Source: Gloeomargarita sp. SKYG116
Lineage (GTDB): Bacteria > Cyanobacteriota > Cyanobacteriia > Gloeomargaritales > Gloeomargaritaceae
Direction: 5' to 3'
Assembly (NCBI GenBank): GCA_025056115.1
Contig: JANWVM010000026.1
Coordinates: 1 to 32,029 of the forward strand
Length of the DNA stretch: 32,029 nucleotides
A model generated the notes under the pieces. It ran no database searches. It saw only the letters and a program-made list of their open reading frames with translations, and was not told the DNA's origin. The position numbers and the translations under genes were made by a program. The first letter of the stretch is position 1. Each line of letters opens with the position of its first letter. Positions 6,157-30,940 of the stretch are shown piece by piece.

Positions 6157-7548
6157 ATGTTTGAAGCCCTGACTGAACAACTCGAAGCCGCTTGGAAAAA
6201 GCTGCGCGGTCAAGACAAGCTCACACCAAGCAACATTCAGGACGCTTTGAAGGTGGTGCGCCGCGCGCTGTTGGATGCGGATGTCAACGTCCAAGTCGTG
6301 CGGGAATTCATTCAGGCCGTCGAACAGCGGGCCATCGGCAAAGAGGTTATTGCTGGTGTGCGTCCCGATCAGCAATTCATCAAAGTGGTGTACGACGAAC
6401 TGGTCGCTGTCATGGGGGGCCAGCAAGCGCCCTTACAGGCAGCTCCCACCCCTCCCAGCATCATCCTCATGGCCGGGTTGCAAGGGACAGGAAAAACCAC
6501 GGCTGCGGCGAAACTCGCCCTGTACCTCAAGAAGCAAGACAAAAAACCCCTACTGGTGGCTACTGACATCTACCGGCCAGCGGCGATTGACCAACTGCAA
6601 ACCCTCGGGCGACAGATTGATGTACCCGTATTTGCCCTGGGAACCGAGGTCAATCCGGTGACGATTGCCGAGCAAGGGGTGGCCCACGCCCGGGCGGAGG
6701 GTTACGACTGGGTCATTGTAGATACGGCAGGCCGCCTGCAAATTGACCAGGACATGATGGCAGAACTCGCCCAGATCAAAGCAGCGATTCAACCCCACGA
6801 AGTGCTGCTTGTGGTGGATGCCATGACCGGCCAGGAAGCCGCCAATCTCACCCGGGCGTTCCATGAACAGATTGGTATTACTGGCGCCATCTTGACCAAA
6901 GTCGATGGGGATAGCCGGGGCGGCGCCGCGCTTTCCGTGCGTTACGTCTCCGGTCAACCGATTAAATTTATCGGCACTGGTGAAAAAGTCGAAGCCCTGC
7001 AACCTTTTTATCCTGAGCGAATGGCCTCGCGGATTTTGGGCATGGGAGATGTATTAACGCTCGTGGAAAAGGCCCAAGAAGCTGTAGATTTGGCCGATGC
7101 TCAAAAAATGCAGGAAAAGATTCTCCAGGCCAAATTTGACTTCACTGACTTTCTCAAACAATTACGCTTGCTGAAAAACTTGGGGTCACTGGGGGGATTT
7201 TTGAAGCTCATCCCTGGCATGAATCAACTCAAAGCCGAACAAATCCAGCAGGCGGAAAAACAACTCAAACGCGCCGAAGCCATGATTAATTCCATGACCC
7301 CTGAAGAGCGGCAAAATCCCGATTTATTAGCCAGTAGTCCCTCCCGGCGACGGCGGATCGCCAAAGGTTCAGGTCATACCGAAGCCGAAGTCGCCAAGCT
7401 AGTACAAGACTTTCAACAAATGCGTACAATGATGCAGCGATTGAGTACGGGAGCATTGCCAGGGATGGGCATGGCTGGTGTGGGTAGTGGTCGTGCAGCC
7501 CGCCGCAAACAACAACCCAAAAAACGCAAGGGATTTGGTCAGTTATGA
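6157..7548 (+). CDS. ffh: Signal recognition particle protein Ffh (SRP54)
   Basis: GTPase of the signal recognition particle that binds SRP RNA and signal peptides and docks with FtsY for co-translational membrane targeting. It has 463 residues with the N domain (1-90), and the G domain with P-loop GLQGTGKTT (107-115), DTAGR and TKVDGDSRGGAALS motifs. It ends with a Met-rich M domain holding KLIPGMNQ and the helix-turn-helix RNA-binding part near SPSRRRRIAKGSGH. The C-terminus is basic (GRAARRKQQPKKRKGFGQL). The start at ATG 6157 matches the family N-terminus (MFEALTEQLEAAWKKLRG); no strong Shine-Dalgarno precedes it. It stands alone in its direction. Confidence 0.98.
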   Translation: MFEALTEQLEAAWKKLRGQDKLTPSNIQDALKVVRRALLDADVNVQVVREFIQAVEQRAIGKEVIAGVRPDQQFIKVVYDELVAVMGGQQAPLQAAPTPPSIILMAGLQGTGKTTAAAKLALYLKKQDKKPLLVATDIYRPAAIDQLQTLGRQIDVPVFALGTEVNPVTIAEQGVAHARAEGYDWVIVDTAGRLQIDQDMMAELAQIKAAIQPHEVLLVVDAMTGQEAANLTRAFHEQIGITGAILTKVDGDSRGGAALSVRYVSGQPIKFIGTGEKVEALQPFYPERMASRILGMGDVLTLVEKAQEAVDLADAQKMQEKILQAKFDFTDFLKQLRLLKNLGSLGGFLKLIPGMNQLKAEQIQQAEKQLKRAEAMINSMTPEERQNPDLLASSPSRRRRIAKGSGHTEAEVAKLVQDFQQMRTMMQRLSTGALPGMGMAGVGSGRAARRKQQPKKRKGFGQL

Positions 7549-7628: not shown

Positions 7629-8298
7629 CTATGTGGGTGAGCACTGGCTAGCAAGGTAATTTTGTATGATTTTCCGCCAGGTTTGCTCCGCTGCCACCTC
7701 ATCCTGTTGCGCCTGTTCCAAAAAGCGATAGAGATGCTCTTTTTCTACCCAAGGAAAAGTGGGAGAGTGGTCACGTTCTACGTAAACTCCTTCCACCAGT
7801 TGAAAAATTCGCCATTCTTGCCCGTTATACCGCCAGAATTCTGGGACGCCTAGCGCAGCATAAAATCGGTTTTTATCAATATCAGTGCGAGTAATGTCTA
7901 TTTCGACAACCAAGTTGGGGGGTGGGTCAACCGCAAAATTCACAGCGCGCCCTGCCACCTGCGGTTGATGTTGGATGTTGAATGTAGTAGGTGCAATCAG
8001 GTTCAGCGCTGCGTTGCAAGTCTTCCCGGTCAATTCTTGTGGATCCCATCGTTTTAACCTTCATCCCCATTGCTGTCACCAGGGCAGTAATAAAATGCTC
8101 GATTAAACGCAAGGCAAATTCATGTTCTTGTAAGGGTATAGTCATTTCCAAAACGCCCTGGTCGTAGGTGAAACGGGCTGCGCGCGATTGGGGCAGTGCC
8201 TGCAGAATTTGTTGATACGCCTGCCAGGTCAGGCCGTGTAACGTGACCCGTTTTTCGCCCATCGGTTGTGTAGCGCTTGGGGAGATAGCTGTGACCAT
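7629..8298 (-). pseudogene. Uma2-family (DUF820) gene broken by a 7-bp tandem duplication
   Basis: Two overlapping minus-strand frames together make one Uma2 protein. The first frame begins at ATG 8298 (MVTAISPSATQPMGEKRVTL) and runs through the family N-terminal half to CTYYIQH. The C-terminal half (QPQVAGRAVNFAV, PPPNLVVEIDITRTDIDKNRFYA, GVPEFWRY) continues in another frame to the stop at 7629. At the joint, GATGTTG is repeated head to tail at 7967-7980. Removing one copy restores a continuous 220-residue frame reading IQHQPQVAG. The gene starts 2 bases after pdxJ and is probably cotranscribed with it. It may be a real inactivation, a slippage-switchable gene or a sequence error. Confidence 0.85.
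7967..7980. repeat. 7-bp perfect tandem duplication (GATGTTG x2)
   Basis: Two adjacent copies, 7967-7973 and 7974-7980, lie inside the second Uma2 gene. The extra 7 bases shift the reading frame by one, and deletion of one unit restores it. Confidence 0.9.
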
Positions 8299-8300
8299 CG

Positions 8301-9023
8301 CTATAACTCGCCCCGCATCGCCCGTTTCATGTCTTGCACGGCTTGAGTCAATCCCACCAGTACTGCCCGGCTGATGATGCTGTGACCAATATTCAGTTCC
8401 TCCATCCCCGGGATGCAAGCCACCGGATAGACATTTTGATACGTCAATCCATGTCCGGCGTTGACTCGCAACCCCAACTCCTGGGCCAGCTTCGCTCCCA
8501 TGGTTAACCGTTGCAATTCTTGCTGGCGCTCGGCTTCGTGGCGGGCAAGGGCGTAGGGGCCAGTGTGCAACTCAATCCACTGAGCACCGGTTTGCTGGGC
8601 GGCGCGAATCTGCTCTGGCTCGGCATCAATAAACAAACTCACCGGTATCCCCTGCGCTTGCAAAGTTGCCACTGTCTGTGTCAGTTCCTTGAGGTTTCCC
8701 ACCACATCTAACCCGCCTTCGGTGGTAATTTCTTCCCGGCGTTCTGGCACCAGCGTTACATAATCCGGGCGCACCTCCAAGGCAATTGCTACCATTTCCG
8801 GTGTAGCCGCCATTTCCAGGTTTAGGTGGGTCTGTACAGTTTGCCGCAGGCAGCGGACATCTCGCTCCTGAATATGCCGCCGGTCTTCCCGCAGATGCAC
8901 GGTGATGCCATCGGCTCCTCCCAGTTCGGCCAGAACTGCTGCGGCAACCGGGTCCGGTTCGGTTGTGCGTCGCGCCTGCCGGACTGTGGCAACATGGTCT
9001 ATGTTCACACCAAGCGTTGGCAC
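8301..9023 (-). CDS. pdxJ: Pyridoxine 5'-phosphate synthase PdxJ
   Basis: Condenses 3-amino-2-oxopropyl phosphate with deoxyxylulose 5-phosphate to pyridoxine 5'-phosphate, the last ring-forming step of DXP-dependent vitamin B6 synthesis. Landmarks: [17 protein letters not shown] at the N-terminus, [17 protein letters not shown], then [30 protein letters not shown] and the C-terminal LRVNAGHGL and EELNIGHSI. Start: the GTG at 9023 gives the N-terminus usual in the family (240 residues) and has GGGAG 9 bases upstream. An ATG at 9053 would add ten residues and also has an AAGGG site, so it remains possible. The divergent permease gene begins immediately next to it. Confidence 0.95.
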
Positions 9024-9024
9024 C

Positions 9025-9879
9025 GTGTTAGACTCCCACCCCTTCTCTGCCATTGTACCCTTCTGGCAACGCCAGTCCCCCACTCAGCGAGTATTTCTAC
9101 TTATCGGTCTGGCCTTGGTGCTCCTGTACGCGGTTGCGGCGTTGTTGGCCCCCTCGCTGCTGACGATAGGCTTACCGGACCCCCAAGAATTCCTCACGCA
9201 TACCCCCCAACAACCCCCGAGTCCGCAGCATTGGTTCGGCACTGACCGCCAGGGTTACGACGTGCTCAGCCGGGTGATTTTCGGGGCGCGGGCGGCGTGG
9301 CAGGTGGTGTTGTGGGCAACTGGATTGAGCCTGGGCATTGGGTTTCCGCTAGGCGCTGTGAGCGGGTATTGGGGCGGCAAAGTGGATAAGGTGTTGTTAT
9401 TTCTCATGGACACGCTGTACACCCTGCCGGGGTTGCTCTTGTCCTTGACTGTGGCGTTTGTGGTGGGGCGAGGGGTATTGAATGCGGCGATTGCCCTGAG
9501 TATTGCCTACATTCCCCAGTACTACCGCGTGATTCGCAACCACACCTTGAGCCTGAAAAATGAACTGTTTGTGGAAGCAGCGCGGGCGTTGGGCGCCAGT
9601 GAGTTATCCATCCTAATACGGCATTTGAGCGGACATTTAGGGCGAGATTTGCCGGTTTTGATCAGCGTCAACAGCGCCGATGCCATTTTGACCTTAGCAG
9701 GGCTAGGGTTTCTGGGGTTGGGATTACCGCCGGAAACGCCAGAATGGGGACACGAATTGGCCCAGGCGCTCGACAGTTTACCAACGGGTGTGTGGTGGAC
9801 AACGCTGTTTCCGGGTCTCGCCATGACCGGGTTGGTGGTGGGTTTATCGCTGATCAGCGAAGGGTTGGGAGAAGCCTGA
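9025..9879 (+). CDS. DppC/OppC-type ABC transporter permease
   Basis: Inner-membrane permease of the binding-protein-dependent (oligo/dipeptide or nickel) family, 284 residues from GTG 9025. A first membrane helix ([24 protein letters not shown], here given in part: [13 protein letters not shown]) is followed by the diagnostic [20 protein letters not shown]. Four to five further hydrophobic segments follow, as does the cytoplasmic EAA loop ([18 protein letters not shown]) that contacts the ATPase. Sequence upstream of 9025 in this frame is the antisense of pdxJ, so a longer protein is unlikely. The partner permease, ATPases and binding protein are absent from the window, which makes substrate prediction unsafe. 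Confidence 0.85.
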
Positions 9880-23891: not shown

Positions 23892-24230
23892 TTCCGTTGG
23901 CCAACGATTGGGCTGTGCCAGGTTTGTCCAGGAACCTTGATGACCATACCATCTACGCCAACTTGGCTAGTGAATTTGGGTTCCAGCCAGTAGAGGATTG
24001 CTGGGTGAAATGCAGCGATGGAAGAACCAGTGGCGCGGACGCCCCCCTGCAACCGTTCATTGGCAATTGATAGAATCATTGGCAATTGATAGAAACGCCT
24101 TGAAAGTGGCTTGGCTAGAGTTACATTTAACGACAACGTTTGGGCAAGGTTAACAAGAGATTACAAGAAGTTAAAGACTGCCAGGGGACGGGTGGGCCGG
24201 TGATAGCGTAGAAATAGGAGACAACACTAA
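23892..24230. other. Upstream region / probable long leader of lrtA (339 bp)
   Basis: No gene is assigned. The first 180 bases stay open in two opposed frames, but neither reading gives a recognisable protein. A 19-bp tandem repeat lies at 24057-24094. A weak HLR1-like pair (ATTACAAG and GTTAAAGA, 10-base period) lies at 24160-24177, and a lone GTTACATT at 24120-24127. lrtA transcripts in other cyanobacteria have long light-sensitive leaders, which fits this spacing. Confidence 0.5.
24057..24094. repeat. 19-bp perfect tandem repeat upstream of lrtA
   Basis: TCATTGGCAATTGATAGAA occurs at 24057-24075 and again at 24076-24094. Each unit contains the palindrome CAATTG. Function unknown. Confidence 0.92.
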
Positions 24231-28357: not shown

Positions 28358-30940
28358 ATGTCCTTTGTGCCCCTGCACGTCCACACTGAGTACAGCCTGC
28401 TCGACGGCGCTAGTCAAATTCCCCAGTTGGTTGAACAGGCCGTCGCCCTGAACATGCCTGCCATTGCCGTCACTGACCACGGGGTAATGTACGGCGCTAT
28501 CGAACTGATCAAACAATGTCGAGAACGGGGCATTAAACCCATCGTTGGCAACGAAATGTACATTATCAATGGGGACATCACCAAACAGGAACGCAGCCCC
28601 CGTTATCACCTTGTCGTTCTGGCCAAAAACACCCAGGGTTACAAAAATCTGGTTAAATTAACGACGATTTCCCACCTGCAAGGCATCCAGGGCAAAGGCA
28701 TTTTTTCCCGCCCCTGCATCAATAAAGAATTGCTGCGCACCTACCGCGAGGGCTTGATTGTTACCAGTGCTTGCTTAGGCGGTGAAATCCCTCAAAAAAT
28801 CCTCCAAGGTCAGTCTCAAGAAGCGCGGCAAATTGCAGCCTGGTACCAGCAAACGTTTGGGGATGATTTTTATCTGGAAATCCAAGACCACGGCTATCCA
28901 GAAGACCGGATTGTCAATGTGGAAATTATCCGCATCGCTCAAGAGCTAGGAATTAAATACATTGCCACCAATGACTCCCACTACATTTCCTGTTACGATG
29001 TAGAAGCCCATGATGCCCTGTTGTGTATTCAGACTGGCAAATTGATTACCGATACCAAGCGCCTGCGCTACAGCGGTACGGAATACCTGAAGTCTGCCCA
29101 AGAAATGGCGCAACTATTTCGGGATCACCTGGACGATGACATCATCCAAACTGCCCTCAAAACCACCCTGGAAATTGCCCAAAAAATCGAACCTTATCAC
29201 ATCTTGGGAGAACCCCGCCTACCAGAATATACTGTGCCGGTTGGGCATACGGTAGATACCTATCTTGAACAATTGGCTTGGCAAGGTTTGTCGGAGCGGT
29301 TGGGTGTCAAACGAGATCAGATTCCAGCCGAGTATAAAGACCGGTTGGTTTATGAATTAAAAATCATCCAACAACGAGGCTTTTCCGGTTATTTTTTGGT
29401 GGTGTGGGATTACATTAAATATGCCCGAGACCATGGCATTCCAGTTGGGCCAGGCCGGGGGTCAGCAGCCGGTTCCCTAGTGGCCTATGCCCTGAAAATT
29501 ACCAACATTGACCCGGTGCATCATGGCCTGCTGTTTGAGCGCTTTTTGAACCCGGAGCGCAAATCCATGCCCGATATTGACACTGACTTTTGCATTGATA
29601 ATCGCGACCGCCTGATTGAATACGTCACCCAGCACTATGGCAACGACCGGGTCGCCCAGATCATTACTTTTAACCGCATGACCTCTAAAGCTGTTCTGAA
29701 AGATGTCGCCCGCGTGCTTGAAGGAATTAGTCACCGTGAAGCCGACCAAATGGCCAAGCAAATTCCTGTATTTCGCGGCAAACCAACCCCCCTGCGGGAA
29801 ATGATTGGCGAGGATACCCCTTCACCCGAATTCAAAGCTCGCTATGAACAAGAAGAAAAAGTCCGCCATTGGTTAGATTTAGCCATGCGGATTGAAGGAG
29901 TTAACAAGACATTTGGAGTTCATGCTGCCGGTGTCGTGATTGCGCCGCAACCTCTCGATGAGTTAGTGCCTTTGCAACGTAATAATGATGGTACTATCAT
30001 CACGCAATACCCCATGGAAGATATTGAGTCCCTGGGGTTGCTCAAAATGGACTTTCTAGGGTTGCGCAACTTGACCCTAATTCGCCAGGCAGTAGAACTC
30101 ATTGAAAAAAACCATCACACTCGCATTGACCTAGACCATTTGCCTTTGGATGACCCCAAGACCTATGCGCTATTAGAAAGAGGAGAGGTTGAGGGAATTT
30201 TCCAACTGGAATCAGCAGGAATGCGGCAAATTGTGCGAGACTTGAAGCCCTCGAGCATTGAAGATATTTCGTCCATTTTGGCCCTCTATCGTCCGGGTCC
30301 TTTAGATGCTGGTTTAATCCCCAAATTTATTGACCGTAAACATGGCCGTGAGAAAATTGAATACGCCCACCCCATGCTCGAACCAATTCTACGGGAGACC
30401 TATGGGTTGATTATTTACCAGGAACAGATCATGAAAATTGCCCAGGACATGGCCGGTTATTCCTTGGGTCAAGCGGATTTGCTGCGGCGGGCCATGGGCA
30501 AAAAGAAACCCGAAGAAATGGAAAAGCAACGACAGGTTTTCTTGGAAGGGGCAGCCAAAAATGGTATTCCCAAAGAAATTGCTGTGGAACTGTTTGAACA
30601 AATGGTCCTGTTTGCGGAATACTGCCTCACCTATGAAACTGAGGTATTGACAGTGGAATACGGCCCTTTGCCTATCGGCTACATCGTGGAACACCGCTTG
30701 GCATGTACCGTGTACAGTGTCAATGACCAGGGCGAACTTTATACCCAACCCATTGCCCAGTGGCATGACCGGGGTGAACACATAGTCTATGAATACGAAC
30801 TTGATGACGGTACCATAATCCGCGCTACTCCCGACCACGAGTTCATGACCACCGACGGCCAGATGCGACCCATAGATGACATCTTTACCCAAGGACTAGA
30901 GTTGCTGTCAGTGCCAGTTGTCTCCCTAGCGCGAGTTTAG
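28358..30940 (+). CDS. dnaE: DNA polymerase III alpha, N-terminal half fused to split-intein N-fragment (DnaE-N)
   Basis: 860 residues. Residues 1-755 are the first part of the replicative polymerase: PHP domain ([16 protein letters not shown]), ATNDSHY, the palm with [15 protein letters not shown] and PDIDTDFC (catalytic Asp406 and Asp408), and [12 protein letters not shown]. At residue 756 (codon 30623-30625) the protein changes to an intein N-fragment of 105 residues: junction [17 protein letters not shown], then [12 protein letters not shown] and block [11 protein letters not shown]. The gene stops there. The second polymerase half with the intein C-fragment must be encoded elsewhere, and trans-splicing should rebuild full-length DnaE, as known for cyanobacteria. 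Confidence 0.97.
30623..30937 (+). other. Split DnaE intein N-fragment coding segment
   Basis: Encodes residues 756-860 of DnaE-N, a Hint-fold trans-splicing fragment. The nucleophile is Cys1 (CLTYETE), with block B Thr69 and His72 (intein numbering, in RATPDHEF). It resembles the Npu/Ssp DnaE fragments (about 102-123 residues) in length and sequence, but its C-terminal tail [12 protein letters not shown] is its own. The extein residues AEY before the cut match the usual DnaE junction. Confidence 0.95.

Follow-up and report, generated by a model that had tools for sequence, protein, structure and literature searches.

A recent slippage-type duplication of 7 bp has, with a probability of roughly 0.77, inactivated an accessory Uma2 gene in the 32,029-nt stretch of DNA analysed here (the window), a case of ordinary pseudogenisation within a large, redundant and patchily distributed gene family. 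The heptamer GATGTTG occurs twice at positions 7967–7980 of the plus strand, exact and head to tail (CAACATC twice in the sense of the gene), which confirms in the sequence the extra copy reported in a preliminary description. From the ATG at 8298 to position 7632 the gene spans 667 nt, or 220 codons plus 7 nt, which bears out the intact frame of 220 codons proposed in that description, and the remainder of the frame contains no further stop or indel, as had also been claimed there. The predicted product from ATG 8298 is 123 aa long, against 220 aa if the frame were unbroken. The features of the locus are as follows.

7632–8298, minus strand: frameshifted Uma2-family (PF05685) gene, with its stop codon at 7629–7631 (Pfam, alignment, translation)
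7981–8298, minus strand: N-terminal part in the original frame, with the conserved Pro-Asp at P88-D89 (alignment A4)
7981–7987, minus strand: CTACATT, an older, imperfect version of the repeat unit, immediately upstream of the duplication in the gene (sequence, alignment)
7967–7980, minus strand: 7-bp tandem duplication, derived, the relatives having one copy (sequence, comparison with relatives)
7927–7966, minus strand: out-of-frame segment after the lesion, running to the premature stop at 7927–7929 (translation)
7629–7966, minus strand: C-terminal part in a different frame, with the conserved Glu (E118) and Lys (K128) (alignment)
8301–9083, minus strand: pdxJ, intact, directly upstream (Pfam, genus search)
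6157–7548, plus strand: ffh (SRP54), intact, convergent neighbour (Pfam, genus comparison)

The most likely mechanism, to judge from the sequence, would be slippage during replication. The heptamer CTACATT shares five of seven letters with CAACATC (ACAT being common to both), was already present in the one-copy relative G001 and, together with CAACATC, forms an imperfect repeat that coincides with conserved Tyr-Tyr-Ile-Gln codons; it is a plausible seed for the slip. Aided by this older imperfect heptamer pair (CTACATT-CAACATC), the nascent strand would slip back by seven bases and CAACATC would then be copied again, giving a 7-bp tandem duplication that would shift the frame of the Uma2 gene between pdxJ and ffh and inactivate it. 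The truncated protein of 123 aa would keep the conserved Asp and lose the conserved Glu and Lys. Structure at the site was considered as a cause of the slip and rejected, as no unusual single-strand fold was found (z −0.58).

Family assignment and conserved residues

Both halves of the gene align to the Pfam model of the Uma2/DUF820 family (PF05685), the C half with 37.9 bits over profile positions 90–153, above the gathering cut-off of 27, and the N half with 20.6 bits over positions 7–81, below that cut-off. The two pieces in the window together retain the P-D, E and K positions that are conserved in the family, but the copy differs from its family in that a frameshift separates the conserved Asp (D89) from E118 and K128, the conserved Glu and Lys. 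A member of PF05685 would be expected to have one continuous frame; this copy, interrupted at 7967–7980, is a broken member of the family. Across 94 aligned rows, made up of 15 relatives and 79 Uma2 ORFs (some genes having been entered twice), D89, E118 and K128 are kept in 92, 93 and 87 rows, respectively, and P88, D89, P113 and E118 are each kept in 92–93. DUF820 has been assigned to the PD-(D/E)XK superfamily, with 1wdj as the representative structure (PMC1913061), and by analogy with that superfamily D89, E118 and K128 would be natural candidates for the active site. Over the stretch of conserved residues, the profile of the relatives also finds one PDB chain, 9y1l (E 3e-4), whose annotation is putative restriction endonuclease domain-containing protein. 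The break presumably deprives this Uma2 copy of its activity.

Comparison with relatives and age of the lesion

The derived state of the duplication is evident from the relatives. The best DNA match, in the genome G001 of the same genus (72% identity), has one CAACATC after CTACATT, and the corresponding heptamer is single in all six aligned relatives, with the same letters in G001 only; ragged ends aside, the coding part of this DNA alignment has no gap but the 7 nt. At the protein level, 54 related loci were compared, namely those of the best matches in searches of the genus and of the class, and those from a scan of named cyanobacterial contigs; the contig scan contributed 11 loci from other named cyanobacterial records and may omit records of this genome or of very near ones. 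Both halves are matched across the site with zero gap and in one frame by 49 of the 54 loci, or by 44 after the removal of five whose first 60 aligned residues equalled those of another locus. The five loci that lack such a joint match comprise four with partial matches (L012, L016, L018 and L019) and one with none (L020). Among the 49, L157 carries a stop at another place. As expected for a pseudogene that arose by tandem duplication, there are intact homologues that retain the single copy of the ancestor. The extra heptamer copy was found in none of the 49 read-through relatives, which include no genome of the same species. A search for a second genome of the same species found none, viral contigs gave no match to an exact pattern from the gene, plasmids gave no match to the locus, and a literature search found no publication on this Uma2 lesion.

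The lesion is considered recent because no other stop is present and only two of 54 columns that are invariant in 15 intact relatives are changed (E45Q and D114N), as in the intact relatives themselves, which show 0–3 changes in 14 of 15 cases when left out in turn (the most distant, L015, shows eight). Both positions vary in the set of 94 rows, E45 being kept in 41 and D114 in 73. Under neutrality, about 30 stops and 116 changes at invariant columns are expected per substitution per site when all single changes are counted, and the presence of no stop and at most two damaging changes bounds the divergence since the break at less than about 0.042 substitutions per site (P = 0.056 at 0.042 and 0.024 at 0.05, so that the bound lies close to the 5% level). 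This bound is rough, since equal mutation rates are assumed, and it gives no absolute date. A single lesion with no further clear decay agrees with the recency that had been claimed from the sequence.

Frequency of tandem repeats and the question of a switch

The repeat alone is unremarkable, and it is the comparison with relatives that marks it. One exact period-7 tandem pair is present in the window, where 50 dinucleotide shuffles gave 1.98 on average, and a 432-kb sample (the window and 20 other stretches of the genome) contains 22 such pairs, against a mean of 20.6 and a range of 11–29 in 10 first-order simulations. Eight period-8 pairs were seen in the same sample, with 6.5 simulated. A general proneness of the genome to short tandem duplications was therefore rejected, as pairs of period 7 and period 8 occur at the simulated frequency. 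Longer units, for which fewer pairs are expected by chance, may be slightly overrepresented, as single pairs were found at period 10 and period 11 (simulated means 0.1 and 0.0, respectively) and at period 19, the last of these lying in this window.

The preliminary description had suggested a slippage-based on/off switch, in which one copy of the heptamer would be the on state and two copies the off state, with toggling in the population. Phase variation by simple sequence repeats (SSRs) is a high-frequency and reversible form of switching, and it is found by hypermutable repeat numbers beyond the expectation from genome composition (PMC11868660). The locus resembles the SSR contingency loci described in the excerpted part of that paper in that copy number of a direct repeat sets the frame, and the rest of the gene is almost intact. 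It differs from them in that the 7-mer is present in two copies only, period-7 pairs occur at chance level (22 seen, 20.6 expected) and the extra copy is absent from the read-through relatives (0/49); at the GATGTTG site the tract is thus no longer than composition predicts and the repeat number does not vary across these relatives. On these grounds the suggestion of a phase-variable switch is highly improbable. Any small duplication may revert at a low rate by back-slippage, and this would not amount to a switch. Silent resistance genes of S. aureus, for which reversion at 1e-4 to 1e-10 has been reported (PMC6819657), offer a partial parallel in the excerpt of that paper: a small frame-changing lesion lies in an otherwise intact gene and low-rate reversion is conceivable, but reversion was measured there and Uma2 is no resistance gene. 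A broader version, in which low-rate heritable slips at the Tyr-Tyr-Ile-Gln codons would repeatedly toggle copies across the Uma2 subfamily and maintain a reservoir of dormant nucleases, is just as improbable a conjecture. Simple inactivation of one accessory copy remains the preferred reading.

Assembly and translation as alternative explanations

An error of assembly or sequencing, with a true genome that has one copy and an intact Uma2 gene, is unlikely, but it carries clearly more weight than a switch. The genome under study (G000, 2.37 Mb) is a draft of 258 contigs, and two of 20 sampled stretches each contain 10 N, a sign of gaps or scaffolded joins in the assembly; the near-pristine state of the remaining frame is also what an intact gene would give. 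The window itself is, however, free of N, and no near-copy that could have been mis-merged was found, since the genome has a single site that fits a 17-letter pattern from the gene with at most one mismatch, and the next protein match there is 37% identical. The lesions in other Uma2 copies are of different types. A systematic error is opposed by a screen of the 432-kb sample, where 33 tandem pairs have a period of at least 7 that is not a multiple of three and no pair among them other than the Uma2 one was found to split a real frame. Split frames were called in this screen when at least 60 open codons lay on each side, and two of the 33 pairs passed these thresholds, the Uma2 locus and L127:2657–2672; the latter was rejected as a split frame because it sits within an open frame of 442 aa, which reads as a putative EPSP synthase. 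The screen also flagged 28 period-5 pairs, a period at which pairs are frequent by chance. From this evidence we infer that the assembly is correct at the site.

A programmed +1 shift that restores the frame in translation, or a function of the two halves as separate proteins, is the least probable of the explanations considered. From a TTG at 8033 onwards the C-terminal frame is open, and about 100 nt of it overlap the N-terminal frame, as either possibility would allow, yet this arrangement is due to a lesion that the relatives lack. The context in which RF2 frameshifting takes place is CTT TGA, whereas the N-terminal frame ends in GGT TGA, and in separate proteins the conserved residues would sit on different chains.

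Genomic neighbourhood

The Uma2 gene between pdxJ and ffh is accessory and of rapid turnover. Only 2 nt separate the pdxJ stop from the Uma2 ATG at 8296–8298 (TAG CG ATG), and the far end of the Uma2 gene faces ffh. While pdxJ was found in all seven genomes of the genus, the ffh-pdxJ junction was found among the six other genus genomes in G003 alone, where it lacks Uma2, the ffh and pdxJ stops lying 2 nt apart with nothing between them; in the five others, neither ffh nor this Uma2 was found in the compared stretches of about 10 kb. The gene may thus have been gained in G000 or else lost in G003, either being compatible with this distribution. The G001 copy occupies a different genomic place. 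Of the 291 genomes of the class, 56 have DNA relatives of this copy with E 1e-20 or better; within the genus these are confined to G000 and G001, with a weaker DNA relative in G005. A selection for loss beside pdxJ had been raised as a question in the preliminary description, and no evidence for it was found: ffh and pdxJ are both intact, and Uma2 copies elsewhere in the genome are also broken, at unrelated places.

Uma2 genes across the genome and genus

The genome G000 has 31 Uma2 matches at 30 loci (two matches share one locus), and 5 to 63 matches, partial ones included, were found in each of the six other genus genomes. After five loci at or near contig ends had been set aside (L024, L033, L037, L047 and L050), at least six of the 25 remaining loci of G000 are broken, by different lesions; these are the window locus, L031, L039, L040, L048 and L045. 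In L040 and L048 the Uma2 gene is spread over several frames, and L045 is a C-terminal remnant. The Uma2 gene of L031 (about 1465–2028) has one in-frame TAG and is otherwise full-length, seemingly a second fresh break by a single lesion, and that of L039 (1390–1990) has an internal deletion of 125 bp and a 1-nt gap relative to its relative in G003. One further locus (L049) is doubtful, with a weak Uma2 match and no support from tblastn. No break was seen in the remaining 18 of the 25 loci; among these, comparison of L023 with one relative puts a piece at the N-terminal edge into a second frame. The window also contains a second Uma2 gene, which is intact (946–1524, 101.7 bits).

Expansion of the family is known from Thermosynechococcus strains TA-1, CL-1 and PKUAC-SCTE542, with 16, 17 and 15 Uma2 copies, respectively (PMC9403480). 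The likeness to the present genus lies in the high copy number and its variation between close genomes; the counts, as given in the excerpt of that paper, cover intact homologues only and include neither this locus nor its lesion. In Synechocystis, the hox operon includes a DUF820 gene, close to toxin-antitoxin genes (PMC4963859), and Uma2 genes have been given as putative restriction genes (PMC9716671), although the excerpted parts of these two papers have no bearing on the lesion. The locus allows gene death to be seen early, with intact, freshly broken and deeply decayed nuclease-like copies within one small cyanobacterial genome. The coexistence of these states supports the view of Uma2 copies as expendable genes with fast turnover, and no wider mechanistic surprise arises from it.

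Other features of the window

An exact 19-bp tandem duplication (TCATTGGCAATTGATAGAA, twice) is present at 24057–24094, between a DnaJ/TPR gene and an S30AE ribosome-associated gene, and it is far longer than the pairs found in the shuffles, which covered periods up to 12. It starts within a short dispersed repeat at about 24012–24075, a copy of about 53–60 bp with a core like AGAACCA..GGGGGTGCCCCCCTGCGACCGCTAATTTGCAATTGATAGA and a G/C palindrome. The dispersed repeat also occurs at several places in G005, G002 and G004 and at C110 of the genome under study. In the window it lies within an insert of about 250 bp, and the same spacer is found without the insert in G003 and G001. At three of 10 repeat loci examined (L175, L176 and L177), a Uma2 gene lies at most about 160 bp from the repeat.

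Matches to GUN4 and Ndh2 in the window fit a cyanobacterial host, to which related records also point. A DNA polymerase III alpha gene at 28358–30940 has a frame of 860 aa with PHP, alpha and finger domains and stops shortly past the last of these. An intein often splits DnaE in cyanobacteria, and such a split would explain the early end of this frame.
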